Source: a virus. From it: DNA of 37,243 nucleotides. The translations under genes were made by a program, and so were the position numbers. Positions 109 through 37,243 of the stretch are shown here, in pieces. The stretch covers positions 1 to 37,243 of IMG/VR virus record IMGVR_UViG_3300010233_001477. The stretch is one strand, 5' to 3'. The notes below the pieces were generated by a model. It had not been told where the DNA came from. It searched no databases and was given only the letters and a program-made list of their open reading frames with translations. Every line of letters begins with the position of its first letter. Position 1 is the stretch's first letter.

Positions 109-532
109 AGGAGTAATAAGCCCTACGCTCATACTTCATTCGAAAATAAGATGGAATGGGTAGTAAAAATAAGATAATAACTGGTAACGCAAGCTTCCAG
201 CTAATTAGAAAGAGTAGTAGTGCCGGTAGAGCGAAAATCTGTGGCATCATATAAGATAGTTGAAACCAGAAGGATCCAATTCTCTTGTGATCATAGAGAT
301 GAACTAGTTCGTGTAGGAAAACGACGGCACCTGAAATAGGGCGTAACTTAATGTAATTTTCAGTAGGAATGTAGACTGTATCACCAATGGTAGTGGTGTA
401 ATCGGTCATAAAGCTTTTATTGAAGAATAGTAAGAAGCCTAGGAACTTCATGAAGGCTGATTGATTTTTGTATTTGATCTGTAAACTTGGGAAGTACTTT
501 TGGGCTGCGGTTAATAATTCTTGAAATGGCAT
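89..532 (-). CDS. membrane-associated HExxH metallopeptidase-like protein
   Basis: A 147-residue protein with a HELVHLYD motif near residues 74-81. This matches the HExxH zinc-binding and catalytic signature of gluzincin-type metallopeptidases. Two strongly hydrophobic stretches follow (about residues 90-110 and 112-127), so it probably sits in the inner membrane. A further acidic zinc ligand may be the Glu of the ERRAYY segment. The ATG has a G-rich ribosome binding site (GGGGG) about 7 bases upstream. The protein stops about 12 residues after ERRAY, which seems early. The antisense frame to its left stays open to the window edge, so a frameshift or natural truncation is possible. The substrate is unknown. 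Zinc-protease assignment rests on the motif alone. Confidence 0.7.
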   Translation of the reverse strand: MPFQELLTAAQKYFPSLQIKYKNQSAFMKFLGFLLFFNKSFMTDYTTTIGDTVYIPTENYIKLRPISGAVVFLHELVHLYDHKRIGSFWFQLSYMMPQIFALPALLLFLISWKLALPVIILFLLPIPSYFRMKYERRAYYSSIHCRI

Positions 533-569
533 GACGTACCCCCGTTAATTTTACATAGTTGTCTACCTT

Positions 570-950
570 TTAGGCTGCAAAATTTGCGATGCTGACAGTA
601 ACTGGATTATCTACAACTAGACCCGATCCTTTAAGAGCGCTAGACATTTTAGGAGCATAAGTTCGATCAAGCACTGCGGCTAAGCTGTTAGCCGAAGCAT
701 GAGCTGGTGTAGCTGCTACATGGAATTTGACATTCATGTTTTTATCAACTACTGCCCTAATGTCTAGCGAAACATTATCGGGGACTTTAGCTGTGTTGAG
801 CAGCGGAGCAATATCGTTGCTGGATGGTCTGGCGCCGGCTCGGGACAGAGCATTATCAATGTCTCCTGGTTGAGCAGTTTGCGCCTGAGCTAAGGCAATT
901 TTCTCAGCAAAACGGGCAGCAAGTTTTAGCAGTTTGTCAGCAGAAGTCAT
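570..950 (-). CDS. hypothetical protein
   Basis: A 126-residue protein with no recognised domain. It begins with a Lys/Ala-rich amphipathic helix (SADKLLKLAARFAEKIA) and then has an Ala/Ser/Val-rich remainder predicted to be mixed alpha/beta. There is no membrane segment or Cys pair. AGGA lies about 6 bases before the ATG, a good ribosome binding site. It lies in the fibre and structural region, so a minor virion or assembly role is possible, but this is inference from position only. Confidence 0.75.
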   Translation of the reverse strand: MTSADKLLKLAARFAEKIALAQAQTAQPGDIDNALSRAGARPSSNDIAPLLNTAKVPDNVSLDIRAVVDKNMNVKFHVAATPAHASANSLAAVLDRTYAPKMSSALKGSGLVVDNPVTVSIANFAA

Positions 951-1007
951 AATGATCCTCGAACGTTGTGTTTTATATACCTTGAGAGTAATAGTTCGCC
1001 GCTACAA

Positions 1008-1232
1008 TTAACTGTATACCAACCAAAAATCACCCAGGTAAGATACGATAATTTGAGAGCCGCTTAACTTATACCACTTGGTTTGTAGTAGTCCGCTGTT
1101 GAATAACGGAACATCACCACCCACAATAGCTAACTTCATAACTGAGTGAAAATCTTCGGGTAGATTGATGGCGTAACCATCAGAGATGATGTAGCCGTCA
1201 ACTGTTTTAAAAAGGAAATTTTTGTTAACCAT
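1008..1232 (-). CDS. small hypothetical protein
   Basis: A 74-residue protein rich in aromatic and beta-branched residues, probably a small all-beta domain (for example WYKLSGSQIIVSYLGDFWLVY at the C-terminus). GAGGT is placed well before the ATG. It begins only 8 bases after the stop of the large fibre gene 1241-2878, so the two are probably cotranscribed. A fibre-associated chaperone or tip protein would fit this position, but nothing in the sequence proves it. Confidence 0.7.
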   Translation of the reverse strand: MVNKNFLFKTVDGYIISDGYAINLPEDFHSVMKLAIVGGDVPLFNSGLLQTKWYKLSGSQIIVSYLGDFWLVYS

Positions 1233-1240
1233 CAGTTACC

Positions 1241-2878: not shown

Positions 2879-2903
2879 CTAGCATTCCTTATAAATCCAA
2901 CTA

Positions 2904-2923
2904 TATACTAAAATTTTAGTATA
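2904..2923. promoter_or_regulatory. perfect 20-bp palindrome between divergent fibre genes
   Basis: The sequence TATACTAAAATTTTAGTATA is its own reverse complement without a mismatch. It lies in the 73-base space between the start codons at 2878 (minus) and 2952 (plus). A symmetric AT-rich site between divergent genes suits an operator, a bidirectional promoter core or a bidirectional transcript-end hairpin. There are no GC-rich stem bases and no separate U-run. A partial match (attttagta) occurs near 10202-10210 beside another fibre start. Confidence 0.5.
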
Positions 2924-2951
2924 ACTCTGAAGTATTCATTCTAGGAAAACT

Positions 2952-5480: not shown

Positions 5481-5486
5481 TTTCTA

Positions 5487-6233
5487 TTAGAGATGATAAT
5501 CCACACGGAGACGGGCAATGGTTGAAACAAAACCCCCATGTGTGGGAGTCATTGCTCCGAAAAAGATGCCCATGGCACCTGGAGTAACGGCATTTCCAGC
5601 AAAACCATCGGTCTGCTGACCGGTACTATCAGCCCATGAGTTCATTGGTTTGACATAACTAGGCCATGGCGGAACAGTTGCTGTTGTTAAATTACCGTGC
5701 ATCACGGGTCCCCATAATGAATCGACAGTGATAGATTGTACTTGAAAGGCAGAGCTGCTCGCACTTGCACCATAAACGCCAGATGTGCCTGTTGAACCAT
5801 TGATCGTTCGACGCGTCCAGAGACCGTTGGTACTATTGAATCCACGAAGCGTAGCATAGTACCAATCGGTGCTATCGTTACCAACTGCCAAGATACTATT
5901 GTCAAAGTTTGCGGTCGGAGTAGTTGCAGTTATGTACGCCCAGACTCTAATTCCCGTTTCCCAATCAAGGCTTGGTATATTCAATTGTGAAAATGGAAGA
6001 AATAACAGAGGGAAACTGCGTGTGCTGCTTACAAGATCGCCCGTAGAGTTTGGTTGAAAAACGATTCCGGTTCCATTTGTCAAAACGGTGTTGGATGATT
6101 CGTTGGTGGAATTATGTTTTGTAAATGATAAGCCACCAATCGTATAAGTAGCATCTCCCGAAAGAGTCTGGGTTGTTTGGGCCGTAAAATCTAGATCAAG
6201 AATTGTTTTCCAGTTGCGATTTGTATATGTCAT
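5487..6233 (-). CDS. fibre-tip / adhesin-like protein, stand-alone paralogue of the domain in 2952-5480
   Basis: A 248-residue beta-rich protein. Its N-terminus (LDLDFTAQTT), a middle segment (GIRVWAYITATT) and its C-terminus (GIFFG...HGGFVSTIARLRVDY) line up with LDVDFTAQTT, LRIWLYAAGET and YIFFG...GGFNGYISTISRIRLDY in the collagen fibre at 2952-5480. The two are paralogous domains, one free and one at a fibre tip with about 290 extra residues inserted. The fold is probably a lectin-like beta-sandwich, which I infer from composition and virion context. AAGGAA lies upstream of the ATG. Its stop is 6 bases from the stop of the convergent plus-strand gene. Confidence 0.75.
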   Translation of the reverse strand: MTYTNRNWKTILDLDFTAQTTQTLSGDATYTIGGLSFTKHNSTNESSNTVLTNGTGIVFQPNSTGDLVSSTRSFPLLFLPFSQLNIPSLDWETGIRVWAYITATTPTANFDNSILAVGNDSTDWYYATLRGFNSTNGLWTRRTINGSTGTSGVYGASASSSAFQVQSITVDSLWGPVMHGNLTTATVPPWPSYVKPMNSWADSTGQQTDGFAGNAVTPGAMGIFFGAMTPTHGGFVSTIARLRVDYHL

Positions 6234-6252
6234 AATAATTATTCCTTGGGTA

Positions 6253-7161
6253 TCATCTAGAAATGCACGTGACCGTTCCTGTCGCAGCCGTGTAGGTTCC
6301 GTTACCAGTCGTGTTGAGAAGCTGGAACGTGGTGAGGGTCAGGACGTTTATTGTGAAATTGCCCGAGTTGTTGTTCCCAGAGCCGGAGTTGGCGTTAGTG
6401 TTCCCGCCGACCCCGTGAATTGCCACAAGATCCCCTGTCAAGAGGTTATGGTTGCTGGATGTCGTGATAACGATGGGGCTCGCATTTGTAGCATTTGAGA
6501 CGCTGACTTGAGGAACGTTGAGGGTTGTTGAGTATTTATTTCGGTAGACAAGCGCACTACCCTGACCAGTTCCACCTGACCCGGCACCATTACCCATCAT
6601 GAATCCGTAATATGCGAGGCTAGCGGGAGTAGATGCTGAATACCAGTCGGTCCAGAAATAACCGTCCGCGCCAAATTGGTAATGCAAAATACTGCCATCG
6701 TTGATCAATCGAAAGCGCAATATTCCCATATCCAAACCAAGACCAGTGCTGCTTTGCTCATTGTTGATACTAATTCTAGTAGAACTGGGGTGAAACGTTT
6801 CCATATGCCAGCCATAACTCGTACCGTTCCAATAACGTTCCATCGCATATGCTGTGTCCCCACTTGTAGTACCAGTAGCAACGCAAACTCCTACTTCTGG
6901 ATACTGAACGTTCCAAACATACGTAGCATCATTACAGGCAAAATCCACAAACCATGGAGTAGCTTGAGGTAAAGAGGCGGAAATAAGCGCCGTTTTAGAA
7001 TTATTCGTAGCAGTATCTCCACACGTAGCTAAGAGAACGTTGGGTCCCGCCTGATTGACTCCAAAAAATTGTCCACTAAGTGTGTATGCAGATGCTAGAG
7101 GGGTATTTAGACTATTCCATACTCCAGGTCCGGAGCCACCATTGTTAGTGATATATGACAT
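6253..7161 (-). CDS. phage adhesin-like protein with E1-FCCH-type C-terminal module
   Basis: A 302-residue protein. Residues about 1-215 are Gly/Ser/aromatic-rich and probably a beta-sandwich (for example YGWHMETFHP, LRFRLINDGS, FWTDWYSAS). Residues about 220-302 carry the pattern 'ASPIVITTSSNHNLLTGDLVAIHGVGGNTNAN...FTINVLTLTTFQLLNTTGNGTYT'. This resembles the repeat in phage structural proteins that databases label as the ubiquitin-activating enzyme E1 FCCH domain. In phages it is a structural beta module and does not imply ubiquitin chemistry. AGGAG is about 10 bases before the ATG. The DNA encoding the C-terminal module (6253-6510) is clearly more GC-rich than its neighbours, suggesting recent acquisition. 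Confidence 0.7.
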   Translation of the reverse strand: MSYITNNGGSGPGVWNSLNTPLASAYTLSGQFFGVNQAGPNVLLATCGDTATNNSKTALISASLPQATPWFVDFACNDATYVWNVQYPEVGVCVATGTTSGDTAYAMERYWNGTSYGWHMETFHPSSTRISINNEQSSTGLGLDMGILRFRLINDGSILHYQFGADGYFWTDWYSASTPASLAYYGFMMGNGAGSGGTGQGSALVYRNKYSTTLNVPQVSVSNATNASPIVITTSSNHNLLTGDLVAIHGVGGNTNANSGSGNNNSGNFTINVLTLTTFQLLNTTGNGTYTAATGTVTCISR

Positions 7162-7176
7162 AAAATTATTCTCCTA

Positions 7177-8235
7177 TTAGATAATTGACCAGTTAGTACC
7201 ATTATAAACAACAGTTATAGAGTTGTAGGCGCCACTGATGCTATAAGTAGAAGACCCAACAATATTTTTACCATTACCACTAACTGTGATATTATGGGTA
7301 ACAGCGGCGCCACTAATGTCCACAATAGTGTGCGACTCCCCGGTAACAGGAGATAATGGTAGAGTGATGGCTACAGCATTGCTTGTTGAATCAACGGGGA
7401 TAAATTGATCCGTAAATAGTGCCGTATAAGTAGTGGCAGTAATAGTGCTGGTAACAAAGTAAACGTTGCTAGAACTGCTTAGGAGTAAGTCCGTAAGACC
7501 AACACCTTGCTTATACATATTTTGCAAATAGGATTGAGGGCGAACTGTTGATTCAACTCTAACATCATCAATGATGGCATCAGAAGAAGCCCCGGTCGAG
7601 TTCGGATAATCTCCAACTCCATACGGTCCATTGGTTCCAAAGTCTATGGTTCCGCTTTGCACGGCAGTTCCTGCCAAGGCACCATTGATGTAGGCGGAAA
7701 GCGTAGTTCCATCGTAAGTTATAGCTAATAGAGTCCAGGTATTTTGCGGAATCTTGTAGTCTGAAGTGTTCATAGTAATAGCAACTTGAGAGCCGCTGAC
7801 GGCGATTCCGGCTTGCCACGTTCCATCGGCTGTTGTTAGCTGAGTTATTCCTAAAGCATTGTATGGGCTGTTATGAGTGCCATCGTTTCGATACTCTTTG
7901 TTGACGAGATTATTACCGGCAACTGCGAAATTTCTAATGAATACCCAACATGATAATGTCATGCTGGTTCCAGTTGGATTCACAGAAGTATTACCTGAAG
8001 AAAGTCCGGAATTACCGTTGAACCCGACAGCTTGGCTAAATAACCCCGTGAGATTAGTTGAAGGAGTTCCGAAGTTTACAGTTAGGTTGAGAGTTCCGCC
8101 TGTTCCTGTATTAGCAAATGGGGCTGCTGATTCATTGAGAGTCCAACACAAAAGAGTATTACTATCAGTAGCAACCCTACGAATTTGCTGTACTCCTAAT
8201 GTGAGTGCTTGTCCAGAAATAGCATTGTTAGTCAT
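7177..8235 (-). CDS. LamG/concanavalin-A-like lectin-domain fibre protein
   Basis: A 352-residue protein. Residues about 25-235 fit the LamG / concanavalin A-like jelly roll found in phage receptor-binding proteins: 'MTLSCWVFIRNF', 'WTLLAITYDGTTLSAYINGALAG' and 'IDDVRV' are the characteristic strands. The C-terminal 85 residues form a separate module (ITLPLSPVTGESHTI...ITVSGNGKNI...NGTNWSII). It is repeated at the end of the upstream fibre 8235-10160, so both proteins may share a tip or trimerisation element. The start codon overlaps the upstream stop (TAATG), with GGAG just before, which implies translational coupling. It probably binds host carbohydrate, by family analogy. Confidence 0.8.
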   Translation of the reverse strand: MTNNAISGQALTLGVQQIRRVATDSNTLLCWTLNESAAPFANTGTGGTLNLTVNFGTPSTNLTGLFSQAVGFNGNSGLSSGNTSVNPTGTSMTLSCWVFIRNFAVAGNNLVNKEYRNDGTHNSPYNALGITQLTTADGTWQAGIAVSGSQVAITMNTSDYKIPQNTWTLLAITYDGTTLSAYINGALAGTAVQSGTIDFGTNGPYGVGDYPNSTGASSDAIIDDVRVESTVRPQSYLQNMYKQGVGLTDLLLSSSSNVYFVTSTITATTYTALFTDQFIPVDSTSNAVAITLPLSPVTGESHTIVDISGAAVTHNITVSGNGKNIVGSSTYSISGAYNSITVVYNGTNWSII

Positions 8236-10160
8236 TACATTATACTCCAGTTAGTATTATTCCACTCTAAAGTCACGGAATCCCAATTTTGGTTTAATAA
8301 CAAACTAGTCATCAAGCTACCACCACCGAACTGTTCAATGTTATTGCCATTTCCACTAATGGTTAAGTTATTAGTACCGGCAAATCCCTTATAGTCTTTG
8401 ATAGTGTGCTTTTCTCCTAAAATTGGAGAAGCCGGAAGCGTTAGAGTAAAGGCACTGCTAGATAAATCACAGAAAATATCAGCATCGGTGGTAAGAATAG
8501 TATAGGTGCCACTTATGATCTGAGTGATTGTGTTGACGATACCGGTGATACCGCTCGGACGGAATGGCAGCACCAACCCAGTGGTAGTGGACAAAGCAAA
8601 TAGTAGTGGATTGGAATAGCTACTAACAGAAGTTGGTTGAGTGGAGGTCAAGAGACCGGATGTTGCATCTGAAACGAAATAATATTGTCCGGCCGTTAAT
8701 CCCGACAAACCAGTTAGGAGACCAGCTTGATATAGGTTGAAATTATTAGCATCGACAAAGGAAACAATTCCAATGCCCAAAGTGCCGGCAGAGTTAGCTT
8801 CAGCTAGAGCCCAAACTGAACCAGTATAATAAACAGCTTGTCCAGTAGTGAAACCGTGAGAAGTTTGATTAACTGCCATAAAGATGGCGCTGCCGCTTCC
8901 ACCGCCTCCCGCGCCCCAAGTATAGGCACCTGAATTGTAAGTAAGGACCGTGTTGGTGCCGGTAGGAGAAGGAACTGAAATGCCTCGCAGACCAGTATTG
9001 GTAATAGACCCAGCAGCGGAAATGGTGGCGTCTCCACTTATTGTTGTCCAGGTTGGAGTTGGTGTGGCGTTGTTGAGTAAGACTTGAGCGCTAGTGCCAG
9101 AAGCTAATTTGCTAACCGAAAGGGCGGCAGTATTAGACACTTGCGCATCTACAATTTGCTCCCAGGTAGCAGTAGTACCAGAAGTTGCCACCAACACCTG
9201 GTTAACAGAAGGAGTAGCAGGAACAGAGGTGCCATTAACCTTAACGACTGTCGTAGTGGTACTAGCTGTAGTGCCCGAACCAGTAGTATCTCCAATAAGA
9301 GTCAAACTTTGAGAGGCTTGATTGCCCGTTGGCAAGACACCAGTAACGAAATTAGTTCCACCCGCTAGATTAATTGCTCCATAAGATAAGGTAGAAACAC
9401 CACTAACTTGTAATACATTACCAGTCGTTAAAGAGCCAGAGATAGGAACAGAAGCTCCATTAATTTTAGCAACGGTATTGGCATTAGCGGCACCTGTGAC
9501 ATCTCCGGCTAAGGTAATATCTCCAGAGGGGGCTTGCCAAGAAGCCGCGATGGCAGAAGTAGCCTCCAACACATAGCCGGCTGCTGGGGTTCCCGAGATA
9601 ACCACACCTTGAATAGACGCAACTGTATTAGCTCCAATAGACCCAGTAACGTCACCGGCTAGTGTAGTGGTAAAGGTAGTGGGTGCCCAAGCAGAACCAT
9701 TCCATTCTAGAACTTGTCCGGTAGTTGGGACAGTGGCAGAAACAGGATGTCCCTGAATACCAATAACAGTTTGAGAAACGTTAGTTCCAGATAGGTCTCC
9801 ACCCGGAACTAAAGTAGCACTAACTAGACCCCAATTTCCACTTAAAAATTGGTAAAGTCCTTGATTGGTAGAGGCATCTTCACGAAGAAATAAGGAGGCG
9901 TTTTGGGGTGTTACAGCTACCACAACATTAGGATCGCCAACTCCAGCTTGGATGGTTACGCCAGTATTACCAATAAAAAATGGATTAAGAACATCGGGGG
10001 CGGGTGCATTTGGGTTATTAATGCGGGATTCAACAATATCTAGTCTAGCTCTGACGTTAGCATACACACCAGACGGAACAACGCCCAATTCTGTTTCGAT
10101 AGCTTCAACAGCCGCAATCAGATCATTGATTGTATACGCTTTATCATCAAAAAAAGACAT
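8235..10160 (-). CDS. long modular tail-fibre protein
   Basis: A 641-residue fibre. Residues about 8-50 form the attachment-type segment (AVEAIETELGVVPSGVYANVRARLD). They are followed by linker repeats of the 'LAGDVTG...NTVAKINGASVPISG', 'GNVLQVSG...NLAGGTNFVTG' and 'KVNGTSVPATP...TWTTISGD' types, shared with the plus-strand collagen fibre but in a different order. A Gly-rich hinge (GAGGGGSGS, about 410) leads to 'TSHGFTTGQAVYYTGSVW', a beta module common in phage fibres. The last 85 residues (LTLPASPILGEKHTI...LTISGNGNNI...NNTNWSIM) duplicate the C-terminus of 7177-8235. The start lacks a strong purine-rich ribosome binding site. Role: host contact or a fibre shaft. Confidence 0.85.
   Translation of the reverse strand: MSFFDDKAYTINDLIAAVEAIETELGVVPSGVYANVRARLDIVESRINNPNAPAPDVLNPFFIGNTGVTIQAGVGDPNVVVAVTPQNASLFLREDASTNQGLYQFLSGNWGLVSATLVPGGDLSGTNVSQTVIGIQGHPVSATVPTTGQVLEWNGSAWAPTTFTTTLAGDVTGSIGANTVASIQGVVISGTPAAGYVLEATSAIAASWQAPSGDITLAGDVTGAANANTVAKINGASVPISGSLTTGNVLQVSGVSTLSYGAINLAGGTNFVTGVLPTGNQASQSLTLIGDTTGSGTTASTTTTVVKVNGTSVPATPSVNQVLVATSGTTATWEQIVDAQVSNTAALSVSKLASGTSAQVLLNNATPTPTWTTISGDATISAAGSITNTGLRGISVPSPTGTNTVLTYNSGAYTWGAGGGGSGSAIFMAVNQTSHGFTTGQAVYYTGSVWALAEANSAGTLGIGIVSFVDANNFNLYQAGLLTGLSGLTAGQYYFVSDATSGLLTSTQPTSVSSYSNPLLFALSTTTGLVLPFRPSGITGIVNTITQIISGTYTILTTDADIFCDLSSSAFTLTLPASPILGEKHTIKDYKGFAGTNNLTISGNGNNIEQFGGGSLMTSLLLNQNWDSVTLEWNNTNWSIM
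9021..9242 (-). repeat. fibre module A, minus-strand copy
   Basis: This is a gap-free 74-codon counterpart of 3171-3392 in inverted orientation. It is the longer arm of the inverted homology that could support recombination between the two fibre genes. Confidence 0.8.
9330..9437 (-). repeat. fibre module B, minus-strand copy
   Basis: This is a 36-codon counterpart of 3450-3557 in inverted orientation, with a 17-base identical core. It precedes module A in its own reading direction, the reverse of the order in the plus-strand gene. Confidence 0.8.
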
Positions 10161-10217
10161 TGATTACCAACCCATATGCTATATTCTCTTGATATGCGAG
10201 AATTTTAGTATGGGGAG

Positions 10218-10469
10218 TTATTTTATACCCTTTGCTTTATTGATGGCTATAACGGCATCCGCCATAGTAAAACCAGGTAACAGTCCTGATTTTCCAAACC
10301 ATAATATTTCCATGGTGTTGGGTAGAGCAGCGAGGCGAACTAACTCTGCTTCCACGTCATTACAAACTAAAGCTTGACCATTCCAGTTAGGATTATTCTC
10401 AATGAACTTGAAATCACATGGATGACAATCTTCTATCTGGGCTCTGGTGATGATTATTTTAGTTGCCAT
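10218..10469 (-). CDS. small hypothetical protein in the fibre cluster
   Basis: An 83-residue protein beginning MATKIIITRAQIEDCHPCDF. The opening 'I-T-R-x-x-I/L...C' resembles a class of small phage proteins found next to structural genes, but I cannot name a family. Two Cys close together (residues 15 and 18) form a CxxC pair with no second pair, so zinc binding would need a partner. A strong AAGGAG lies 5 bases before the ATG. It sits between two large fibre genes and is probably cotranscribed with them. Confidence 0.75.
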   Translation of the reverse strand: MATKIIITRAQIEDCHPCDFKFIENNPNWNGQALVCNDVEAELVRLAALPNTMEILWFGKSGLLPGFTMADAVIAINKAKGIK

Positions 10470-10478
10470 GAATTCTCC

Positions 10479-12377
10479 TTAAACATAAAGAATATATAGA
10501 TATACTTGACCAATTAGCATAGTTGTGCCAGATGCCGCCGTGGCACGAACAGCATACTGACCTGATGGAGAAAGTTGTCCAGACGCACCTCCAAGTGTAA
10601 TTCCATTAGAAAAATGTTGGTTGAATTGATTTGAGAAACCGAACGAACTAGTGTGTACGGCAGATCCTGTCACCACAACCGAAAATCCGTTATCAAAGAG
10701 ATCTACTATACAATCATTACTAGGAGGAGAGGTGTCTTGACTTATAATTGCGGTTAACGATATAATTCTGTTCTTGGTTCCTATCGTTGCGGGATAATAA
10801 GCAGGATCAACTCCCCAGTTCGGAGATAGTGTAGAAAGTACTATTGGGCTGGTTGAAGTGGTCGAAATTGCTAAAGAGTCTGGAAGATGCATGATGGGGA
10901 GACGAGCTTCCAATATCTGAGCAGGTTGAATAAATGCCGAATCGATATACCATACATTTCTAGCTAAACTATATTTATAATGAAGACCATCTCCCAAAGC
11001 TCCAGTAGAGCCTAAATCGATAGAACTTCCTCCAGAGGCAAACGTACCAGGAGTGGTAGGTATTTCAATTCCAGCATTGGCTCCTGCCGCATTACTCACT
11101 AAACTGGCGTGGTTAAACGTTTCAGATTGAACTCCAACTTTGATAACAATCACGTCGCCATCGACAGGGGTGGGCGGAAATGTTATTGGAACATTAGATA
11201 CGTTAGCAATGACATTAATCCACTGCTCTGACATTTGCGATAGTGTAGTTGTACCACTTATTTCTGTCCAAGTAGGTTGAGATGCTCCCCCACTAGATTG
11301 TGGACTGGCGCCTAAACATACCCAAGTTGGAGCGGTGGCAGTACCAGGAGGCGTAACAAAGTACTCAAACTCGTATGTACCACCTACATGGATGGCTCCC
11401 GATGTATTCGTATTGGTAACTGTACCATCAGGCAACATGAGCTGATTGCCTGTATTCGGACGAACGTTCAGTGTGAAAGTTGATCCTGATCCTCCAGGAG
11501 CACTACTGAACACCAATAATCGAATGCGCTGACCATTGAATGCATCAGTCGATGTTGGAAAGAAAGGGGTATTGAACGTGCCACCCGCGGAAACATCGAC
11601 AGCAATAAACCAATTACCAACAGGTTGAACAACTCCCGAAGTGTATTGAGAATAATCTGCTTGTACTACACTCATTAAACGCCAACGAGTAGGTCCCAAC
11701 TCGTATTTGTAAGTTACACAATGTCCCTCTCCACTCATGAATTGTGTGTTCTGGGCATTACCATTAAAACCTTGACCAGGTAAAATAGGATCGTCAAGAA
11801 GATCGAAATTAAATGAATTTCCAATCAGCTCAGCTTTGACCGCTTTTCCGCCGAAGTCAACTCCAACTTGGCCAAACATGACGGTGACTTCATCACCGTC
11901 ATTAGCATTAGGAAATGTAAGTTGTAGGGTAGTGAATCCAGCAGTATTAGTATTTAAATTGATAAATTGTTTGGCGGCTTGAGAAAGAGTAATTGAACTA
12001 TTGACATCTACCCATGGAGGGTCGCCGCCGCTCGTAAGGGTGGCAACACTTCCTCCACTATTGACAGCAGTAGTTCCAACTAGATTTAGAGTTGTAAATG
12101 GACCTCCAGCTAAAGGAGTGCTAGCATTCTCAAGCTGTACCCCTCCACCCCCACCTCCAATTGACTGCCAGGAAGCGGCAACTGAACTGGTAGCCACTAT
12201 AGCTTGTCCGATAGATGGTATTCCGGTGACGGCAACGCCATTTACCTTGGCTACCCTAGGATTGGGATAAGTTCCTGCCAAATCTCCACCCGCTGGACCC
12301 GCTGAAGGGGCAGTATTGGTGAGTATGTACTTGGCTCCATCCCAAAACAAAAATCCTGGCTGTAATATACTACCCAT
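10479..12377 (-). CDS. tail-fibre / structural protein with internal repeats
   Basis: A 632-residue protein. The N-terminus has the phage fibre signature 'GGDLAGTYPNPRVAKVNGVAV' (about 29-49) and a Gly-rich hinge at about 74-79. Two domains repeat the same order of motifs: 'WVDVNSSITLSQAAKQFINL...LTFPNANDGDEV...YKYELGPTRWRL' (about 95-235) and 'WTEISGTTTLSQMSEQWINV...ITFPPTPVDGDVI...YKYSLARNVWYI' (about 370-485). A related segment may lie between them. The C-terminal 130 residues look like a jelly-roll tip (IISLTAIISQD..., ending QVYLYILYV). It is probably a receptor-contact or baseplate fibre. An SD (AGAGGA) lies just before the ATG, inside the 3' arm of a hairpin described separately. Confidence 0.85.
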   Translation of the reverse strand: MGSILQPGFLFWDGAKYILTNTAPSAGPAGGDLAGTYPNPRVAKVNGVAVTGIPSIGQAIVATSSVAASWQSIGGGGGGVQLENASTPLAGGPFTTLNLVGTTAVNSGGSVATLTSGGDPPWVDVNSSITLSQAAKQFINLNTNTAGFTTLQLTFPNANDGDEVTVMFGQVGVDFGGKAVKAELIGNSFNFDLLDDPILPGQGFNGNAQNTQFMSGEGHCVTYKYELGPTRWRLMSVVQADYSQYTSGVVQPVGNWFIAVDVSAGGTFNTPFFPTSTDAFNGQRIRLLVFSSAPGGSGSTFTLNVRPNTGNQLMLPDGTVTNTNTSGAIHVGGTYEFEYFVTPPGTATAPTWVCLGASPQSSGGASQPTWTEISGTTTLSQMSEQWINVIANVSNVPITFPPTPVDGDVIVIKVGVQSETFNHASLVSNAAGANAGIEIPTTPGTFASGGSSIDLGSTGALGDGLHYKYSLARNVWYIDSAFIQPAQILEARLPIMHLPDSLAISTTSTSPIVLSTLSPNWGVDPAYYPATIGTKNRIISLTAIISQDTSPPSNDCIVDLFDNGFSVVVTGSAVHTSSFGFSNQFNQHFSNGITLGGASGQLSPSGQYAVRATAASGTTMLIGQVYLYILYV

Positions 12378-14194: not shown

Positions 14195-14443
14195 TTACTT
14201 TTTGTGAATGCCAGATCGGATATTAGTTACGCGAGCTACGTCTTCGATAGCTTTTCTCACATCAGCGTAACCAATGTATTCCTTGAAATCTTTGCCAGTT
14301 AGGATACTAGCAATTCTCTTGTCCAAGAGAATAAGAATGCCGTCCAAATCTCTAACGATTGCTCGCTCAAAGATAGGGTTAGCTACCGCGTTGACCACGT
14401 AGCTACGGATAGCAATCAAGTCTAGTAGCTCCTGAAAATCCAT
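14195..14443 (-). CDS. small hypothetical protein
   Basis: An 82-residue, mostly helical protein (MDFQELLDLIAIRSYVV...) with no Cys and no membrane segment. Its ATG overlaps the upstream stop (TAATG at 14443), so translation is probably coupled to the gene at 14443-14787. It lies between PhoH and methionine aminopeptidase genes. I recognise no family. Confidence 0.7.
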   Translation of the reverse strand: MDFQELLDLIAIRSYVVNAVANPIFERAIVRDLDGILILLDKRIASILTGKDFKEYIGYADVRKAIEDVARVTNIRSGIHKK

Positions 14444-20628: not shown

Positions 20629-20786
20629 ATTTTCCCCTGGTAGACATACGTCTCATTTGCATTGTTTTGACGACACAGAATTATTGTCTGTCCCGGCTCA
20701 GGATCGAAAGGCATGGCAAAAGTGATAGAACCATTCATAGCCCAGCAAACTTTACCGTTAGAATTGATGCGTAATTGATGCTTCAT
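20604..20786 (-). CDS. 60-residue protein with I-N-S-N-G-K N-terminal motif
   Basis: The protein starts MKHQLRINSNGKVCWAMNG and continues as a beta-rich small domain with two Cys and several Trp (ILCRQNNANETYVYQGKIWHRVW). Its opening matches that of four tandem micro-proteins at 34889-35520 (I-x-[SA]-[NS]-G-K). It overlaps the upstream zinc-ribbon gene by ATGA. The rest of the chain does not clearly align with the other members. Function is unknown. Confidence 0.65.
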   Translation of the reverse strand: MKHQLRINSNGKVCWAMNGSITFAMPFDPEPGQTIILCRQNNANETYVYQGKIWHRVWQP

Positions 20787-28220: not shown

Positions 28221-28487
28221 TTAGCCTTTGCTTTCATCACAATCATTGCAATCATCTTCACCCTCATCCTTTTCAGAAACAGGACGTGGTTTTACTTCAC
28301 GAATGGCGGTGATATGATCTGCATCTATAACAAATGATCCATAACGTTTTCCAGTCCATTCATTAACAGGAGCTAATACTACCAAATGCCTTGGAACATC
28401 AAGCTTCAGAATGCCTGTGTGAGTATTTCTTACAGTATAGACATCTACCGTCTTACCTTCATATTCTTTGAGTATAGTGTAATGCAT
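28221..28487 (-). CDS. small LSm-like beta protein
   Basis: An 88-residue protein with an Sm-like strand pattern: EYEGKTVDVYTVRNTHTGILKLDV, HLVVLAPVNEW, YGSFVIDADHITAIREVKP. An acidic, Cys-containing tail follows (KDEGEDDCNDCDESKG). It appears to be a divergent relative of the protein encoded just downstream (27910-28218). It overlaps the tubulin-like gene stop at 28487, so translation is probably coupled, and it may work with the GTPase. No RNA-binding residues can be assigned with confidence. Confidence 0.6.
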   Translation of the reverse strand: MHYTILKEYEGKTVDVYTVRNTHTGILKLDVPRHLVVLAPVNEWTGKRYGSFVIDADHITAIREVKPRPVSEKDEGEDDCNDCDESKG

Positions 28488-29884
28488 TATGGCTTTCTCC
28501 TATCTACAACACCACCTACTAGTTTGCCGAAAGCAGATGCCTTTTGAGCCATCTTCTCCTTGACTTTTTGAGCGGCGGTAACAGTTTCATTAGTACCCGT
28601 TTCTAATTGTAGATTGAGATTGCGGGCTTCATCCTTGTTTTTAACAGCCGCGGTGTGCTCATGAGCTTCTTTCTTGAGCTGAGTGACGCGGGACTCGGGC
28701 AAACCCAGTCCACTGAACATGCTATACACCTTGACAACTGGGTCGGGAGATTCTACAGTGTAGATACCCTTGAAGACACCCTTTGGGGTACCACATTGGT
28801 CATTAATCATAGCCATAGCGTAAGTAATGCTAGAGCTGGGAATCTTCGCCCAAGTTTCCTTGTTAGCGGTGATGATTACACCAACGTATCTAGATTGCTT
28901 GAGGTCAAATCCACCAGCTAGCAAGTTGCCATTTAAGTTGCTAACAACTGCTTCGGCAATAGCGGTGTCTTCAGAAAAGTTCTCAACAGTTAACTCACCA
29001 TAAACAGTGAGACCTTCACCATCGGTGAATAGCTTTCCCCACTCCATTGGGTCCAGCCCTTTGACAGACGATGGCATAGAGGAAAGTGTATTAAAGATAT
29101 CGATAGGTTCTACGATAGCTTTATTAGCTACACCAAAGAACTCCATCTGGCTAACATTGTTATAGATAACTTCAAGTTTGGCATTATCAACTACAATTAG
29201 GTTATTGACCTTCTTGCTTTGAGCCATTCTAGCTAGCTTGGAAAGAGTCTCTAGAGCATTAGTCTTGGTTTGGGCATCTTCATTATCCATTGGGAGTACA
29301 GTGATGACCACTAGTGGCTTACCTGTACCAGATAGCACGTCTACCAAAGTTTCACAAGAACCTGCACCGGAACCACCGCCCAGACTGAGGCAGAGTAAGT
29401 TGATTTGGGAACCAGTCAACTTATCATTCAACATCTGAAGGATTTCGCCACGATGCGATTCAGCGGCGGCACGACCAATTTCGATTTCCTTAGCAGCCCC
29501 ACCTAATCCGTGCTCTAACAATAGTTTGTTGGCATCTGGAATATTAATGAACTTCAAATCTTGCATAGCAGTATTGATGGCTATGGCATCATAGCCTAAC
29601 TGATAGAAGGCTTCAGCTATTCTAGAACCAGCTTGACCCGATCCCACGACGCCGAGGGCGATGCTTCTTTCTTTCTTCGATACAATCTTGGCTGCCATCT
29701 TACTCTCCTGTTGTTTGGCTTGGCTTTGTGCCTTTAATGCCGCTAACTTGCTGGCGTCTATCTTATCTTCTGCCTTTACTTCTGTACTGGATACATCATC
29801 CACTACTTCTTCTGGCTTTCCTTGTTCCGTCACTGATGTTGCTGGCATTCTTGCTCCATTATTCGATAATACATATATAGGCAC
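28487..29884 (-). CDS. tubulin/FtsZ-superfamily GTPase
   Basis: A 465-residue protein with the tubulin-FtsZ GTPase core: N-terminal nucleotide loop GVVGSGQAGSRIAEAF (78-93), the signature loop LGGGSGAGS (168-176, compare GGGTGTG) and VVITVLPMDNEDA as the following strand. A GLDPMEWGKLF segment may act as the T7-like catalytic loop. Phage tubulins (for example PhuZ) build filaments that centre or move viral DNA and capsids, and this may do the same. The first 70 residues are acidic and helical, unlike FtsZ. The C-terminus is basic (VVDRRKP). The GTG at 29884 has AGGGGA, and an ATG at 29848 has GGAG, so the start is uncertain. An extended -10 lies just upstream. Confidence 0.82.
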   Translation of the reverse strand: MPIYVLSNNGARMPATSVTEQGKPEEVVDDVSSTEVKAEDKIDASKLAALKAQSQAKQQESKMAAKIVSKKERSIALGVVGSGQAGSRIAEAFYQLGYDAIAINTAMQDLKFINIPDANKLLLEHGLGGAAKEIEIGRAAAESHRGEILQMLNDKLTGSQINLLCLSLGGGSGAGSCETLVDVLSGTGKPLVVITVLPMDNEDAQTKTNALETLSKLARMAQSKKVNNLIVVDNAKLEVIYNNVSQMEFFGVANKAIVEPIDIFNTLSSMPSSVKGLDPMEWGKLFTDGEGLTVYGELTVENFSEDTAIAEAVVSNLNGNLLAGGFDLKQSRYVGVIITANKETWAKIPSSSITYAMAMINDQCGTPKGVFKGIYTVESPDPVVKVYSMFSGLGLPESRVTQLKKEAHEHTAAVKNKDEARNLNLQLETGTNETVTAAQKVKEKMAQKASAFGKLVGGVVDRRKP

Positions 29885-32726: not shown

Positions 32727-33527
32727 TTAACTTTGTACTGCGGGACACCAGTGAATGGTTCGACCTTCTGGCGTCTCTTCCTTCTTAATTGGATTACCTA
32801 ATGGGTCTTGTTTTTGACCGTATACTTTGAACACACTGGAATACCTACCTTCTTCTCCATATGGAGTGGTGTAGGTCTGGATAGTGGCGCCCTGATGTCG
32901 GTATGACTCTTGCATCACATCGACAAGGGCTTTGCATAAAGATTCAGCGCCTTCTCTCGTGATGAGGGTGCCTGGACGCCAAGGAGAAATCTTGGCTTGA
33001 TAGAGAGCCTCTGCTCTGATGTAGTTGCCCACACCAGCAAAGACTTTTTGATCCATTAGGATCTGACCAATGGGTTTATTGGTAGCTAGAATAGTACCAG
33101 TCACGAATGGCTGATGCTTCTCTCTATCTTGGGTGAGAGGATCCCAGCCCAGTTCATATAGCTTCTTGCGAAGTTTATCCTCTCCCTTAACAAATTTGAT
33201 GGTACCGAAATGACGCGGATCATTGAAGTAGATTTCACTGCCATCAGTAAATTCGATTCCTAGGCAAGGATGTTTGCCCTTCTTTGGAGACCATTGACCA
33301 GTCATTCCAAAGGTGCAAAACATATACCAATCGTTCTCGAAAACCCAGTACATAAACTTGCCTTTGGTTTTCACATCTAGAACTTTGGACTTATCCTTAA
33401 ACTCATTCAATCCTTCTGGATTGGAGTTCTTGTACCTGCCGTGCATAGAAAATACGGCTACGGTCTTATCTACTACTAGCGGTCTAATCAACTCTGCGCT
33501 TAGTTTAACTTCTACGCCCTCCGGCAT
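32727..33527 (-). CDS. Fpg/Nei-family DNA glycosylase with degenerate zinc finger
   Basis: A 266-residue base-excision repair enzyme. The N-terminus MPEGVEVKL matches the PE-catalytic start (Pro after Met removal, Glu3). KTKGKFMYW carries the conserved Lys, and NDPRHFGTIKF and the helix-two-turn-helix DQKVFAGVGNYIRAEALY (about 157-174) are typical. The C-terminal beta-hairpin keeps VYG... and GRTIHWCP with the catalytic Arg, but only one of the four zinc Cys is left, as in 'zincless finger' enzymes such as NEIL1. It should remove oxidised bases and cut the strand. The preferred lesion cannot be read from sequence. Its start overlaps the upstream glycosyltransferase by 23 bases. Confidence 0.88.
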   Translation of the reverse strand: MPEGVEVKLSAELIRPLVVDKTVAVFSMHGRYKNSNPEGLNEFKDKSKVLDVKTKGKFMYWVFENDWYMFCTFGMTGQWSPKKGKHPCLGIEFTDGSEIYFNDPRHFGTIKFVKGEDKLRKKLYELGWDPLTQDREKHQPFVTGTILATNKPIGQILMDQKVFAGVGNYIRAEALYQAKISPWRPGTLITREGAESLCKALVDVMQESYRHQGATIQTYTTPYGEEGRYSSVFKVYGQKQDPLGNPIKKEETPEGRTIHWCPAVQS

Positions 33528-34308
33528 TATCCTTACTCCACTTCTTGACGAAGATTTGTCTTGCTTGTTTATACAATTGGTGTGTATTCAATTGGCGGCT
33601 TGTCTGCTTGCCAAAATGAACCACTGGTATCTCTATTACGTGCATAGCAATTCCCAAATTCCTAGCTCTAAATGAGAGATCCGTATCCTCAAAGTATGCC
33701 AAACCAAATTCTTCAGAGAATATCTGTGGAGGTGGAGTTCGATCGTAGAGTTCTATGGTATCTCGTCTATTATCCAGCTTGTCCCAAATTTCTTTGGAAG
33801 ATGCAAGGCACCAACCTGACATGTAAGATTTACCTGGGAGAGAACGATTTGCTTCTTGTACGAAGTTCAACTCGTTATCTAATTGTCCCATGGTGGGTCC
33901 TACTAACGCTTGTGGGCACCATTTGATCAGTTCTTGAGTCCAATCTTGATGATTGGATTTTACGCGAATATCGTTATTTAAAAATAGCACGTTGGGTGCT
34001 ATCGCCATACTATAACCTTGGTTGCAGGCTTTGGCAAACCCTAGGTTAACTTCATTCTTTTTGTAGGTTAATTTATAACGCAGTCCCGGCGTCTCGGCGA
34101 GTTTCATAATCTCGTCATTAGTCTCGTCGGTACTGCCGTTGTCGATGATAATAATCTGGTGGTCGTCTGTCAACCCACTCAGGTCGGTGAGGCAAGCTTT
34201 AGTAAAGTTCCATTTATTGAAAACTGGAATGACAATGCTAAGCACTTTCTTGTTAGCCTCTTCTTCTGGGGTCGTAATCCAAGAAGATGGTATGATTAAA
34301 TTACTCAT
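33505..34308 (-). CDS. family 2 glycosyltransferase
   Basis: A 267-residue GT-A glycosyltransferase: SIVIPVFNKW (about 23-32), IIIDNGSTDET (about 53-63), NLGFAKACNQGY (about 88-99) and VLFLNNDIRV (about 107-116, DxD-like). The acceptor-binding segment is FSEEFGLAYFEDTDLSFRAR (about 200-219), with VVHFGKQTS following. No membrane segment. The ATG at 34308 overlaps the end of the methyltransferase pseudogene, and a TTG one codon earlier is rejected. It is a second, divergent GT2 in this sugar-modification cluster. Confidence 0.87.
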   Translation of the reverse strand: MSNLIIPSSWITTPEEEANKKVLSIVIPVFNKWNFTKACLTDLSGLTDDHQIIIIDNGSTDETNDEIMKLAETPGLRYKLTYKKNEVNLGFAKACNQGYSMAIAPNVLFLNNDIRVKSNHQDWTQELIKWCPQALVGPTMGQLDNELNFVQEANRSLPGKSYMSGWCLASSKEIWDKLDNRRDTIELYDRTPPPQIFSEEFGLAYFEDTDLSFRARNLGIAMHVIEIPVVHFGKQTSRQLNTHQLYKQARQIFVKKWSKDNAGGRRS

Positions 34309-34902
34309 CAACTTTCAGCTCCCATATCATCTGATAGACCTCTCCACCCGGTCTAAACTTGAGGAAAGAGGCTATAGCTGGTGGCACTTTAGTGTAAGCA
34401 TCCTTAAACTCGGAGAGACTTACTTTGTTCTGTAAGTTGTGCTCGAACCCAATCTTGAATCCACACTTCTTGACCATCTTATCCAAAGAGTTCATGGTAA
34501 AGAAACGAAGATGGGTGCTATCTAATAAGCCAGTTTCACGGTAGGTAAATTGGTCATTGATCAGTTCAATAATGACGCCATTGTAAGCTACATTGGGAAT
34601 GGAGATCCAAACAGAGCCATCTTCCTTGAGTATCTTTTTGGTTTCGGTTAGAACTGTAGCTGGTTCAACTAGATGTTCCAATACATCAGCATAGATCACA
34701 TAATCGTAATCGCCCCACTCCGCCTTGATCATATCGAAAGCCATATGTTGCTCAATGTTACCGGAACGTCCGCCCACTTCCCTAGCATGCGACCGTGAGC
34801 TGGACCAATCTCCAGCACAGTTGACCCTGGTTTGATGTTCTCTAGAATAACAGACAGAGAGTTTTTGGACTTCATGTCCAGTGCGAAATCATATTTTGAC
34901 AT
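34301..34902 (-). pseudogene. broken class I SAM-dependent methyltransferase
   Basis: Two frames together make one methyltransferase. The upstream frame (34902-34729, from MSKYDFALDMKSKN) carries motif I VLEIGPAHGRML and then goes out of frame, ending with WLSI. The downstream frame (to 34301) carries YDYVIYADVLEHLVEP (motif IV), ILKEDGSVWISIPN (motif VI) and the C-terminal domain. The distance from motif I to motif IV is about 35 residues, where this family usually has 50-60, so the motif II region that contacts the SAM ribose seems to be lost along with the frame. This indicates a deletion plus frameshift, or an assembly error. The intact ancestor may have methylated a sugar or glycan, given the glycosyltransferase neighbours. 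Confidence 0.75.
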
Positions 34903-35035
34903 AGTAGTTCTTCTTATAGTAAGTTTCAAGCGCTTTATTCATGGTGGTTGCGCCTACCTGTCGTGGCTTCAGTATGATAGTTCTCTTTTTATTCTTAACA
35001 GCTTTGCCATTAGAGTTGATGATTAGTGCTCTCAT
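34889..35035 (-). CDS. 48-residue micro-protein, SNGK-motif family
   Basis: The ORF runs from ATG 35033-35035 to TGA 34889-34891. It starts MRALIINSNGKAVKNKKR and is basic throughout. Its start overlaps the upstream micro-gene stop as TAATG, and its end overlaps the methyltransferase ATG. The N-terminal I-I-N-S-N-G-K motif (probably a beta-turn-beta hairpin with an Asn-Gly turn) recurs in the three genes upstream and in 20604-20786. Function is unknown. Confidence 0.7.
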   Translation of the reverse strand: MRALIINSNGKAVKNKKRTIILKPRQVGATTMNKALETYYKKNYYVKI

Positions 35036-35166
35036 TAGAAATATACCTTCCCTGGTCTTTTACCCACTATGATTTCTTTAGTTATTCTAAAAGCCTCTGC
35101 CCCTATCTCACGCAGAGATTTCCTTCTTGCTTTACCACTAGCATCGATGATTAGGGTATGCCTCAT
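35035..35166 (-). CDS. 43-residue micro-protein, SNGK-motif family
   Basis: The ORF runs from ATG 35164-35166 to TAA 35035-35037. It starts MRHTLIIDASGKARRKSL and ends RPGKVYF. It is basic, with the family opening (I-I-D-A-S-G-K). It is coupled to its neighbours by ATGA and TAATG overlaps. Function is unknown. Confidence 0.7.
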   Translation of the reverse strand: MRHTLIIDASGKARRKSLREIGAEAFRITKEIIVGKRPGKVYF

Positions 35167-35336
35167 TCGCCTACTATTACAGACTTCTTACCTCTGGCAA
35201 CGCCACGTGGATTAACGACAGCTACGCCAATAAACTCTTTAACGGTCCATCCTAATATTATTCGACTACCTTTTCTGACAATCTTACCATTGGCGGTAAT
35301 ACGAAAATAACTATTGGCTTTACACGGATTACTCAT
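35163..35336 (-). CDS. 57-residue micro-protein, SNGK-motif family
   Basis: The ORF runs from ATG 35334-35336 to TGA 35163-35165. It starts MSNPCKANSYFRITANGKIV, with the family motif I-T-A-N-G-K shifted by a short N-terminal extension. It is basic and beta-rich (RIILGWTVKEFIGVAVV). It overlaps the upstream gene by 8 bases and the downstream gene by ATGA. Function is unknown. Confidence 0.7.
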   Translation of the reverse strand: MSNPCKANSYFRITANGKIVRKGSRIILGWTVKEFIGVAVVNPRGVARGKKSVIVGE

Positions 35337-35520
35337 GTTTTTTCTCGAATCCGTATAATTCAGCCCATTTATCCAAAGCCTTACTTGTAGGTTTTTCTAT
35401 CTCGAAATGGAGGGCGACATCATATAGTTGCTTTAGATGATCAAGGGTGAGTTTAAGCAATGTTTTATTCAAACGGTGATCATATCTACCTTTACCATTG
35501 GAATCAATAATCAGCGGCAT
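35329..35520 (-). CDS. 63-residue micro-protein, SNGK-motif family
   Basis: The protein starts MPLIIDSNGKGRYDHRLN and then continues as a helical segment (KTLLKLTLDHLKQLYDVALHF). It has the clearest copy of the family motif (L-I-I-D-S-N-G-K). Its start overlaps the GT4 gene stop by 10 bases, making it the first of four tandem members. The helical part differs from the others, so only the N-terminal element is shared. Function is unknown. Confidence 0.72.
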   Translation of the reverse strand: MPLIIDSNGKGRYDHRLNKTLLKLTLDHLKQLYDVALHFEIEKPTSKALDKWAELYGFEKKHE

Positions 35521-36647
35521 AGGGCAACGATTCTTTCTGCTGCTTTTCGCCAGGTTAATTCGGGCAATATCTCCCGCATTTTGGGGGAGAACTTCTTTAG
35601 GTAATCATCGTAGTTGTTTATTACCTCTCGTAGTTTGCTTGCACATTGATTGACATCTGGATCAAAAACTTTGGCATACGGGGAGGGCTCCCAATATTGC
35701 ATGCGATGGTCGGCTCTAATCTCTTTACCATCAATCAAGATAGAGTTGTCATCGTTCATGTATTCTAACTGACCACCATAGCGAGGAGCTACTACTATTT
35801 TGTTAGCAGCAAATGCTTCTAAACCGGGCATCCAAAAACATTCCGCATGTGCCATAGTCATTACCACGTCGCAAGAGTTATAAAGAGGCTCAATATCCAC
35901 AATGAACTTATCGATAAGTTCTACCTCACCATGGTTCTTGAATTCTTGTTGCCAACGATTGTAAATATCATTGAATGGAACATCAAAACCTGGTTGAGGA
36001 CTTTTACGTGATACTTTAAGAACCAAACACACATCATCAGTTTTATTGAATGCTAAACCATAAGCTCTCAATAGACCAGGGATGTTCTTTCTCAAATGGG
36101 GCTGGGCAATGTTGCACAGAATCTTATACTTCTTTTTAGTCTTGAGTGGGTATTTGCCCAGATTCTGAAATCTGTCCAGATAGATACCATGCGGTACTAC
36201 CACTTGTTTGTTCTCAGGCATTCCGTTGGCAGTAAAAATACTTTTAGAGAATTGAGAAGAGGGCAATACTTTATCAACGTAGACGAAAGCCTTACCAAAA
36301 GCTTTAGGAAGAACAGTGGTTTCATAATTCCAAATTCCAAATCTGTTTTTGTCACCACGAACAAAATACCTAGCGAAGTTGGGAAAAGCCGTATAGGACA
36401 GTTGCATGTCATAGGCGGCGCCCAATTTGGAGGCAACCAAATGAGCATACTCCTGAGCACTGACCTGTTGATTATCCTGGAGCGAACCTTTGAGATAAGG
36501 CTTCAAATCTTCAGGAAAATGTTCGGTGCCGTTGGTGGAAAACAAATCCACATCGTGTCCCATGGCGATCAGCTCTCGGGAGAGATTCTGTGCCACGATA
36601 GACCAACTGTGATTTTTGCCTAGAAAACCAAACCAACATACCTTCAT
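35511..36647 (-). CDS. GT-B glycosyltransferase (GT4-like)
   Basis: A 378-residue GT-B enzyme. The N-terminal domain opens MKVCWFGFLGKNHSW and has SRELIAMGHDVDLFST. The C-terminal nucleotide-sugar domain has VVVPHGIYLDRF (about 149-160), ILCNIAQPHLRKNIPGLLRAY (about 175-195) and AECFWMPGLEAFAANKIVVAP (about 268-288), the E-x7-E-type motif of retaining GT4 transferases. Length is normal for the family. It probably transfers a sugar to a virion protein, phage DNA base or host glycan; the acceptor is not visible. It lies next to a structural gene, favouring a virion or surface role. The DNA between it and the next gene upstream is only 41 bases. Confidence 0.85.
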   Translation of the reverse strand: MKVCWFGFLGKNHSWSIVAQNLSRELIAMGHDVDLFSTNGTEHFPEDLKPYLKGSLQDNQQVSAQEYAHLVASKLGAAYDMQLSYTAFPNFARYFVRGDKNRFGIWNYETTVLPKAFGKAFVYVDKVLPSSQFSKSIFTANGMPENKQVVVPHGIYLDRFQNLGKYPLKTKKKYKILCNIAQPHLRKNIPGLLRAYGLAFNKTDDVCLVLKVSRKSPQPGFDVPFNDIYNRWQQEFKNHGEVELIDKFIVDIEPLYNSCDVVMTMAHAECFWMPGLEAFAANKIVVAPRYGGQLEYMNDDNSILIDGKEIRADHRMQYWEPSPYAKVFDPDVNQCASKLREVINNYDDYLKKFSPKMREILPELTWRKAAERIVALCR

Positions 36648-36688: not shown

Positions 36689-37243
36689 TTATACGCCTAC
36701 AGGACCAGCAGTACCATTGGACACCGCCTTAGCAATACGATCTAGCGCTTGCTGTACCGTAGTAGGTAGCGGAAGTCCCCAGAAGGCAGTGTAGCCGGCG
36801 CCTGGAGTATATCCCACAGAGGCTGCAATAACGAACTGATAGCTTAATCCACTGCCCGTACTAGTAAGCACCGTTCCAACGGCACCCACAGCATTAAGTC
36901 CAGTACCGCCATGTAGGATAGGTAAGATACCAGTTACATCAAACCCTAAATCTACTAGAGCAGATGGTCCGCCATCATTGGCTCCACTGAAGACACTAAT
37001 CATACCCAACATATTCTGAACCTTGGTAGAATCTACGAATAGTGTTTGGTTGTTAAATCCGCCCTTCTTTAGGAAGACGTTAACTTGAATTTTAGTGCTC
37101 AAAGTTTGCAGAACCGGATCTTGGTACAAATTGCTGAAGTTCAATGTCAGTAGTCCAGTAGAGTAATCAATACTGACACCCATCTTACCATCAACAATGG
37201 CGCCATAGTAACCATCTGAACTATAGCCATCTATGTTAGGTGA
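36689..37243 (-). CDS. virion structural / tail-fibre-like protein, C-terminal part
   Basis: The frame is open from the right window edge to the stop at 36689 (184 residues visible). The real start lies outside the window, and an internal Met at 37183 should not be taken as the start. It has an N-terminal beta-rich part (GYYGAIVDGKMGVSIDYSTG, LSTKIQVNVFLKKGGF) and then GILPILHGGTGLNAVG...VLTSTGSGLSYQF. That 'LPxxxGGTG' linker occurs in many phage fibre and baseplate proteins. The C-terminus has TTVQQALDRIAKAV. It would be incorporated into the virion tail. Its exact role is unknown. Confidence 0.75.
   Translation of the reverse strand, partial: SPNIDGYSSDGYYGAIVDGKMGVSIDYSTGLLTLNFSNLYQDPVLQTLSTKIQVNVFLKKGGFNNQTLFVDSTKVQNMLGMISVFSGANDGGPSALVDLGFDVTGILPILHGGTGLNAVGAVGTVLTSTGSGLSYQFVIAASVGYTPGAGYTAFWGLPLPTTVQQALDRIAKAVSNGTAGPVGV

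Follow-up and report, generated by a model that had tools for sequence, protein, structure and literature searches.

Tandem phage microproteins joining a hairpin-like element to pieces of head proteins from the same phage, possible decoys for immune sensors

Several phage head proteins are known to trigger host immune sensors: TerL (terminase) and portal are triggers of Avs1-4 (PMC12931631), the capsid protein MCP triggers CapRel, and the Gol peptide of MCP triggers Lit (PMC9712102, PMC11087589). Sensors can also be blocked by phage products, as in the case of the phage protein DSAD1, which blocks DSR2 in competition with the tail tube protein (PMC11087589). A comparable class of small proteins is that of the MicroProteins of plants and animals, each of which resembles part of a larger protein and disturbs the complexes of that protein (PMC6003976). 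Here, we describe an array of phage micro-genes that combines a short element, denoted H, with fragments of head proteins encoded by the phage itself. Like MicroProteins, the products are small single-domain proteins related to part of a larger protein; they differ in being viral and tandem, in sharing a hairpin and in having several source proteins. The three best-matched sources of their tails are exactly the Avs1-4, CapRel and Lit triggers; however, triggers activate, whereas the phage microproteins are proposed to antagonise. DSAD1 acts on a sensor of a structural protein via an overlapping binding site, and the microproteins may work in the same way, although they are pieces of the presumed triggers, whereas, to our knowledge, DSAD1 has no sequence kinship with its trigger. 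In T4, the capsid-targeting sequence of the internal head proteins is a short segment that directs small proteins to the head, which makes it a model for one of the alternatives discussed below (docking to the head), but the microproteins carry head-protein fragments and we claim no similarity to the T4 proteins. Finally, the microproteins derived from the MCP C-terminus (MCP-C) stem from the last 30-75 residues of an MCP that is homologous to gp27 of phage G (PDB 6wkk), but they comprise 43-90 aa, are without the rest of the fold, and have a derived strand sequence. In the literature searched, we found no description of tandem microproteins assembled from a virus's own head-protein fragments.

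The window, that is, the complete stretch of DNA analysed, is a virus record of 37,243 bases, in which four micro-genes (P0001-P0004) occupy positions 34889-35520 and a fifth (P0005) lies apart, all on the minus strand (Table 1). The original prediction of four overlapping micro-genes encoding 63, 57, 43 and 48 aa, with a fifth 14 kb away, corresponds to ORFs at these positions. The head-to-tail overlaps from P0001 to P0004 are 8, 4 and 1 nt, P0001 shares 10 nt with the upstream glycosyltransferase gene, and P0004 overlaps the ATG of the downstream methyltransferase gene; such overlaps of a few bases, among the micro-genes and with their neighbours, are as in translated phage genes. An assembly artefact is unlikely because the array recurs on independent contigs, which come from different metagenomes. 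Across the six frames of the window, the motif x-x-I-x-[SA]-[NS]-G-K is found five times, always near the start of one of P0001-P0005 and nowhere else. In 300 Markov-simulated windows, the mean number of occurrences was 0.17 anywhere and 0.003 close to the beginning of ORFs of 40-70 aa, so the five N-terminal instances far exceed the frequency for random short ORFs, a comparison by which the prediction could have failed. All five ORFs carry the motif towards the N-terminus, as had been claimed, except that in the 57-aa P0002 it begins at residue 11 rather than at the very N-terminus. The methyltransferase gene that follows the array (34301-34929, minus strand) is in two frames, MSKYDFALDMKS...GPAHGRM and then ...GGRSGNIEQHMAFDM; the gene is carried in one frame in the related loci L093 and L103, and the split suggests a frameshift or a sequencing error.

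Table 1. Micro-genes and flanking glycosyltransferase genes of the window
Feature	Position	Strand	Content
P0001, 63 aa	35329..35520	-	LIIDSNGK hairpin (35491-35514) + tail
P0002, 57 aa	35163..35336	-	FRITANGK hairpin (35283-35306) + MCP C-terminus, residues 25-56 (35169-35264)
P0003, 43 aa	35035..35166	-	LIIDASGK hairpin (35131-35154) + basic tail
P0004, 48 aa	34889..35035	-	LIINSNGK hairpin (35003-35026) + TerL Walker A region, residues 14-41 (34913-34996)
P0005, 60 aa	20604..20786	-	LRINSNGK hairpin (20751-20774) + tail; between replicative helicase and zinc-ribbon genes
Group 1 glycosyltransferase, directly upstream of array	35511..36647	-	PF00534, E 1e-6; anchor gene for relatives
Family 2 glycosyltransferase, downstream	33505..34311	-	PF00535, E 4.8e-17

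H is a short beta-hairpin-like element with a consensus of about [H][DNE]x[IV]II x S N G K [IV]. It has no Pfam or PHROG match, in agreement with the earlier statement that no such family is described; the sole PHROG match among the microproteins is that of the P0002 tail, as MCP. A search for further instances in relatives found H-bearing micro-ORFs at the glycosyltransferase locus of related phages, where the orders H-tail, A-H-B and H-A-B all occur at the same locus, in support of the proposed recombining mini-module with a constant N-terminal element on variable tails. In some relatives, H precedes or separates the two MCP strands. Altogether, 25 H segments from micro-ORFs could be aligned, and a PSSM scan of ~2,000 short ORFs from the window and five relatives gave 28 matches (including the sequences from which the PSSM was made) vs. 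7 in shuffles; most of the strongest matches lie at the glycosyltransferase locus or at a helicase/zinc-ribbon hot spot. Overall, the scan recovered mainly ORFs of the glycosyltransferase locus and few elsewhere, P0005 being one of the latter. At 10-13 residues, H is too short to distinguish common descent from convergence on a stable xNGK turn. Its derivation from the MCP hairpin WG-D-I-VSKIVPPG is possible, given a gap-free alignment in L096, yet H alone scores -1.8 bits; a derivation from the MCP loop VVISSNGTG, which ranks 2nd to 11th among the proteins of each genome, is possible as well. The AlphaFold2 model of P0002 predicts only a hairpin, with low confidence (pLDDT 68, pTM 0.23), and that of MCP, on a shallow alignment, reached a pLDDT of 30.

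That the remainder of each microprotein differs, as originally noted, is right but incomplete, and the origin of the tails had been overlooked: two of the tails in the window are recognisable fragments of phage head proteins, and across the window and its relatives the recognisable sources are the MCP C-terminus, the MCP N-terminus, the Walker A region of TerL, the portal C-terminus, and the gene next to MCP on its upstream side. P0002 matches the major head protein family phrog_2522 (E 8.5e-4) and the MCP of relatives (72% identity over 29 aa), and its residues 25-56 align with positions 303-336 of the 337 in the MCP HMM (36 bits). Full-length MCPs of relatives terminate in FVGVMPIRQDIEVLPADEPKQLKLGWVVSEIIGIAIVNPRGVAAGRKSVVIGA and P0002 terminates in IILGWTVKEFIGVAVVNPRGVARGKKSVIVGE, that is, in the MCP terminus with its stop. 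A micro-ORF of L096 matches MCP 261-336 with 78 bits. As judged from these alignments, P0002-type tails are homologous to MCP (HK97-like, phage G gp27 family). The MCP-like microproteins contain only 20-75 MCP residues, not the complete capsid-forming fold (~290-340 aa), and a separate full-length MCP is present in most large relatives; therefore, they are MCP-derived fragments rather than MCPs. P0004 shows up to 69-71% identity to terminases over 24-27 aa around Walker A and aligns with the TerL HMM (27 bits) at positions 60-90 of 627 only, without the full ATPase and nuclease domains of TerL with Walker A and B (the identity of TerL was established from the gene L002:4719-6704). The Walker A motif of P0004 opens with a proline in place of the glycine; by its alignment, P0004 is a terminase fragment and not a terminase.

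Because the sampled loci were rich in MCP and terminase genes, we added a search of 1,074 proteins of four relatives, a set that represents every gene of these relatives equally: every match with iE<0.15 was to MCP, TerL, portal or the pre-MCP gene. HMM tests against head and non-head families revealed no origin for the tails of P0001, P0003, P0005 and L107. In particular, the P0001 tail had no match with iE<0.5 to the head-family HMMs or to the 1,074 proteins of the four relatives, and single-protein searches with P0001 and P0003 against 30 related records gave no convincing match. The resemblance of KPTSKALDKWAE in P0001 to portal 332-345 (3.4 bits) was equalled in 2 of 300 shuffles and was not accepted. 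The pre-MCP gene was considered as a decoration protein, given that its place is that of gp26 in phage G, but no sequence similarity to gp26 was found and it is therefore named only by its position.

Comparison of codon positions indicates how the MCP-C fragments evolve. Over the 20 codons of the MCP strand, micro-genes differed from one another by 0.37, 0.22 and 0.62 at codon positions 1, 2 and 3, and MCP genes by 0.10, 0.04 and 0.55; third positions are saturated but first and second positions are not, and the protein constraint on the MCP-C micro-genes is therefore real, but looser than that on MCP. Between P0004 and terminases, the corresponding values were 0.29, 0.35 and 0.62. At the protein level, MCP-C microproteins are about 24-57% identical to P0002, whereas the MCPs are 90-98% identical. 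Judging from these patterns, the MCP-C microproteins are under protein-level constraint while evolving far faster than MCP. Alternating residues of the strand (V, S, I/E in MCP) have mostly become T/K, K/R and T/K/V in the microproteins and the intervening V, E and I are retained, a pattern that fits a strand released from the capsid core yet still used. In a tree of the 31-residue MCP strand, which is too short to prove a single origin, the phage G outgroup falls inside the microproteins.

The retained face (V, E, I) could pack against MCP, and the tails are interaction-prone pieces of head proteins, as would suit microproteins that regulate assembly; the fragments would attach to MCP, portal or terminase partners of the same phage through exchange of strands or helices, and thereby delay or tune head assembly and packaging. 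In plants and animals, single-domain microProteins are well established as disturbing complex formation (PMC6003976). However, a regulator of a conserved, essential process is expected to be more constant than the micro-genes, which diverge to about 40% identity and are missing in more than half of the relatives even though the partner MCP is 90-98% identical, and we regard such regulation as quite unlikely. The fragments could also be dominant-negative weapons aimed at other phages, poisoning head assembly in relatives that co-infect the cell; the tails do match head proteins common to related co-infecting phages. With MCPs nearly identical across the lineage and an almost invariant MCP strand, such a poison would hit the phage itself as hard as its rivals, which makes this the least probable of the explanations considered, and a very improbable one.

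Through the upstream glycosyltransferase, we found 34 related loci (46-77% identity), many of them on 180-480 kb contigs. In these related jumbo phages (Bacillus phage G-like), the spot right behind the glycosyltransferase gene often holds 1-6 such ORFs. An MCP C-terminal fragment lies directly behind this gene, as a micro-ORF or a fusion, in 13 relatives (L085, L086/L087, L090, L095, L096, L099, L102, L103, L104, L106, L107, L108 and L117, with L086 and L087 apparently one virus), and a recognisable MCP-C micro-gene is absent from this spot in more than half of the relatives. Portal 506-555 tails occur at the same spot in L085 and L104, and, more weakly, in a second L104 ORF. The tails in L103 correspond to MCP residues 10-43 and to residues 76-100 of the pre-MCP protein, and an H-bearing ORF of L089 includes a degenerate remnant. 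Among 11,982 stop-to-stop segments of the glycosyltransferase loci, all matches to head HMMs with E<0.1 fell inside the array. In L086/L087 and L090, the MCP-derived strand is joined in frame to the N-terminus of the next (family 2) glycosyltransferase; these fusions (L086:5199 and L090:11134) are in two divergent viruses. In L106 (11153-12307), a zinc-ribbon ORF (DUF4379, treble clef), possibly an endonuclease, lies between the glycosyltransferase gene and the micro-genes, and ORFs of similar appearance occur at this locus in L108, L110 and L115. Other ORFs near glycosyltransferases end in KL.(I/A)F(T/I) and possibly form another small family. No Rfam families were found in the locus.

Similar fragments were also found at other loci. 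The helicase/zinc-ribbon neighbourhood of P0005 contains an H-bearing ORF in the relative G009 (L248:1973-2140) and, in G015, an ORF (L292:14408-14758) that resembles MCP 242-276 (16.9 bits, E 2e-3). A further MCP-C micro-ORF directly follows MCP in G035, and G033 has MCP-C micro-ORFs at two other places, with weaker support, one of them behind an IMP dehydrogenase-like gene. Stretches resembling MCP 186-277 lie behind recA-like genes in G012 and G015, with weak support. The portal 322-380 module is present twice within one 135-aa ORF of G009, and proteins of G033 (L380, 274 aa) and G043 (L381, 233 aa) consist of a conserved N-terminal domain, a portal 324-380 fragment and a charged tail. Otherwise, searches of the large records with portal and MCP profiles returned mainly genuine genes. 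The N-terminal domain of the L380 and L381 proteins resembles the ORF at 14195-14443 of the window. Three ORFs of 116-148 aa (L275:17285-17704, minus strand; L287:3111-3557; L292:14408-14758) share similarity to the MCP mid-region and end in K-x-A-F-W or similar.

The position of the main array, behind one glycosyltransferase gene and usually before a second, the in-frame fusions to that second enzyme, and the portal 324-380 fragment behind a conserved domain in 233-274 aa proteins would all suit fragments that serve as docking tags, carrying small proteins, or in two genomes the glycosyltransferase, to heads under assembly, where they would modify the capsid or be co-packaged. The targeting tag of the original prediction may suit the tails better than the N-terminus. 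Nevertheless, most of the microproteins are too small to hold a cargo domain, the Walker A region of terminase is no known docking surface, and similar fragments occur at loci without glycosyltransferases; docking, too, is rather improbable in our estimate.

The MCP of the relatives is homologous to gp27 of Bacillus phage G (E 1e-99, 53% identity), for which a structure is available (PDB 6wkk). The window encodes a tubulin/FtsZ-like protein with a TubZ-like C-terminal domain (28487-29884, minus strand; PF00091, PF22453), with gp138 of Bacillus phage G (24% identity) as its sole match in the phage collection. At 89-12377 and 36689-37183 lie large tail-fibre-like genes that are repetitive, GDVTG/SNxxxLVLP segments recurring in them; one of these genes is on the plus strand (2952-5480). 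The MCP genes of relatives (L368, L371, L363 and L082) contain apparent introns with endonuclease-like ORFs, close to residues 94 and 163 and also at other sites, and inteins or similar in-frame insertions are found at fixed sites, 188 and 197 in TerL and 309 and 350 in portal (e.g., L050, L080, L044 and L052), with two TerL inteins in L080. Breaks in head genes caused by introns, inteins or homing endonucleases could scatter pieces that are sometimes read as ORFs, such that the fragments would be by-products of recombination; besides these insertions, the intein site inside the portal 322-380 fragment and the zinc-ribbon ORF within the L106 array speak for this scenario. Yet the purifying codon-position pattern, the common derived strand sequence, the tight overlaps and the shared hairpin all point to selected proteins, and neither TerL Walker A (73) nor portal 506-555 coincides with an intein site. 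We therefore consider mere by-products unlikely, although recombination may explain how the fragments arise, whatever their present role. A reading of the fragments as remnants of homing endonucleases or inteins was rejected, given that, except for the portal 322-380 fragment, their boundaries lie off the insertion sites.

Because MCP, terminase and portal are known to trigger sensors (CapRel, Lit and Avs), antagonistic mimicry is the leading explanation: reasoning from the sequences and by analogy, we propose, tentatively, that the microproteins act in trans as head-protein mimics, most likely as decoys on host immune sensors. A fragment produced on its own, apart from the remainder of the head protein, would occupy the site at which an Avs-, CapRel- or Lit-like sensor recognises newly made terminase, portal or capsid protein, so that the sensor would stay off. 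With a variable host partner, gain, loss and diversification of fragments would be expected alongside an unchanging MCP in the phage itself; the fast-changing, patchy fragments of near-invariant proteins suggest such a variable partner, for example, host sensors, over the phage's own MCP. The more specific version, a modular decoy array in which the constant hairpin is combined with pieces of each sensed head protein, exchanged in an arms race, with contents indicating the sensors of the hosts, is more doubtful.

Several observations count against decoys. No head origin was detected for the tails of P0001, P0003 and P0005 or for those of several ORFs in relatives, and neither the pre-MCP protein nor the MCP N-terminus is known to be a trigger. 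The 27-aa Walker A piece might neither fold nor resemble the Avs target, and the predicted structure of P0002 is the low-confidence hairpin only. The fusions of the MCP strand to a glycosyltransferase in two genomes fit docking better than a free decoy, and the recognisable MCP-C micro-gene is lacking at the locus in the majority of relatives.

If the microproteins are antagonists of capsid, terminase or portal sensors, they would represent a general anti-defence strategy, pointing to undiscovered sensors of other head proteins. If they dock to the head, they would provide a natural tag set for giant capsids. Either way, unannotated mini-genes of giant phages gain a testable meaning.
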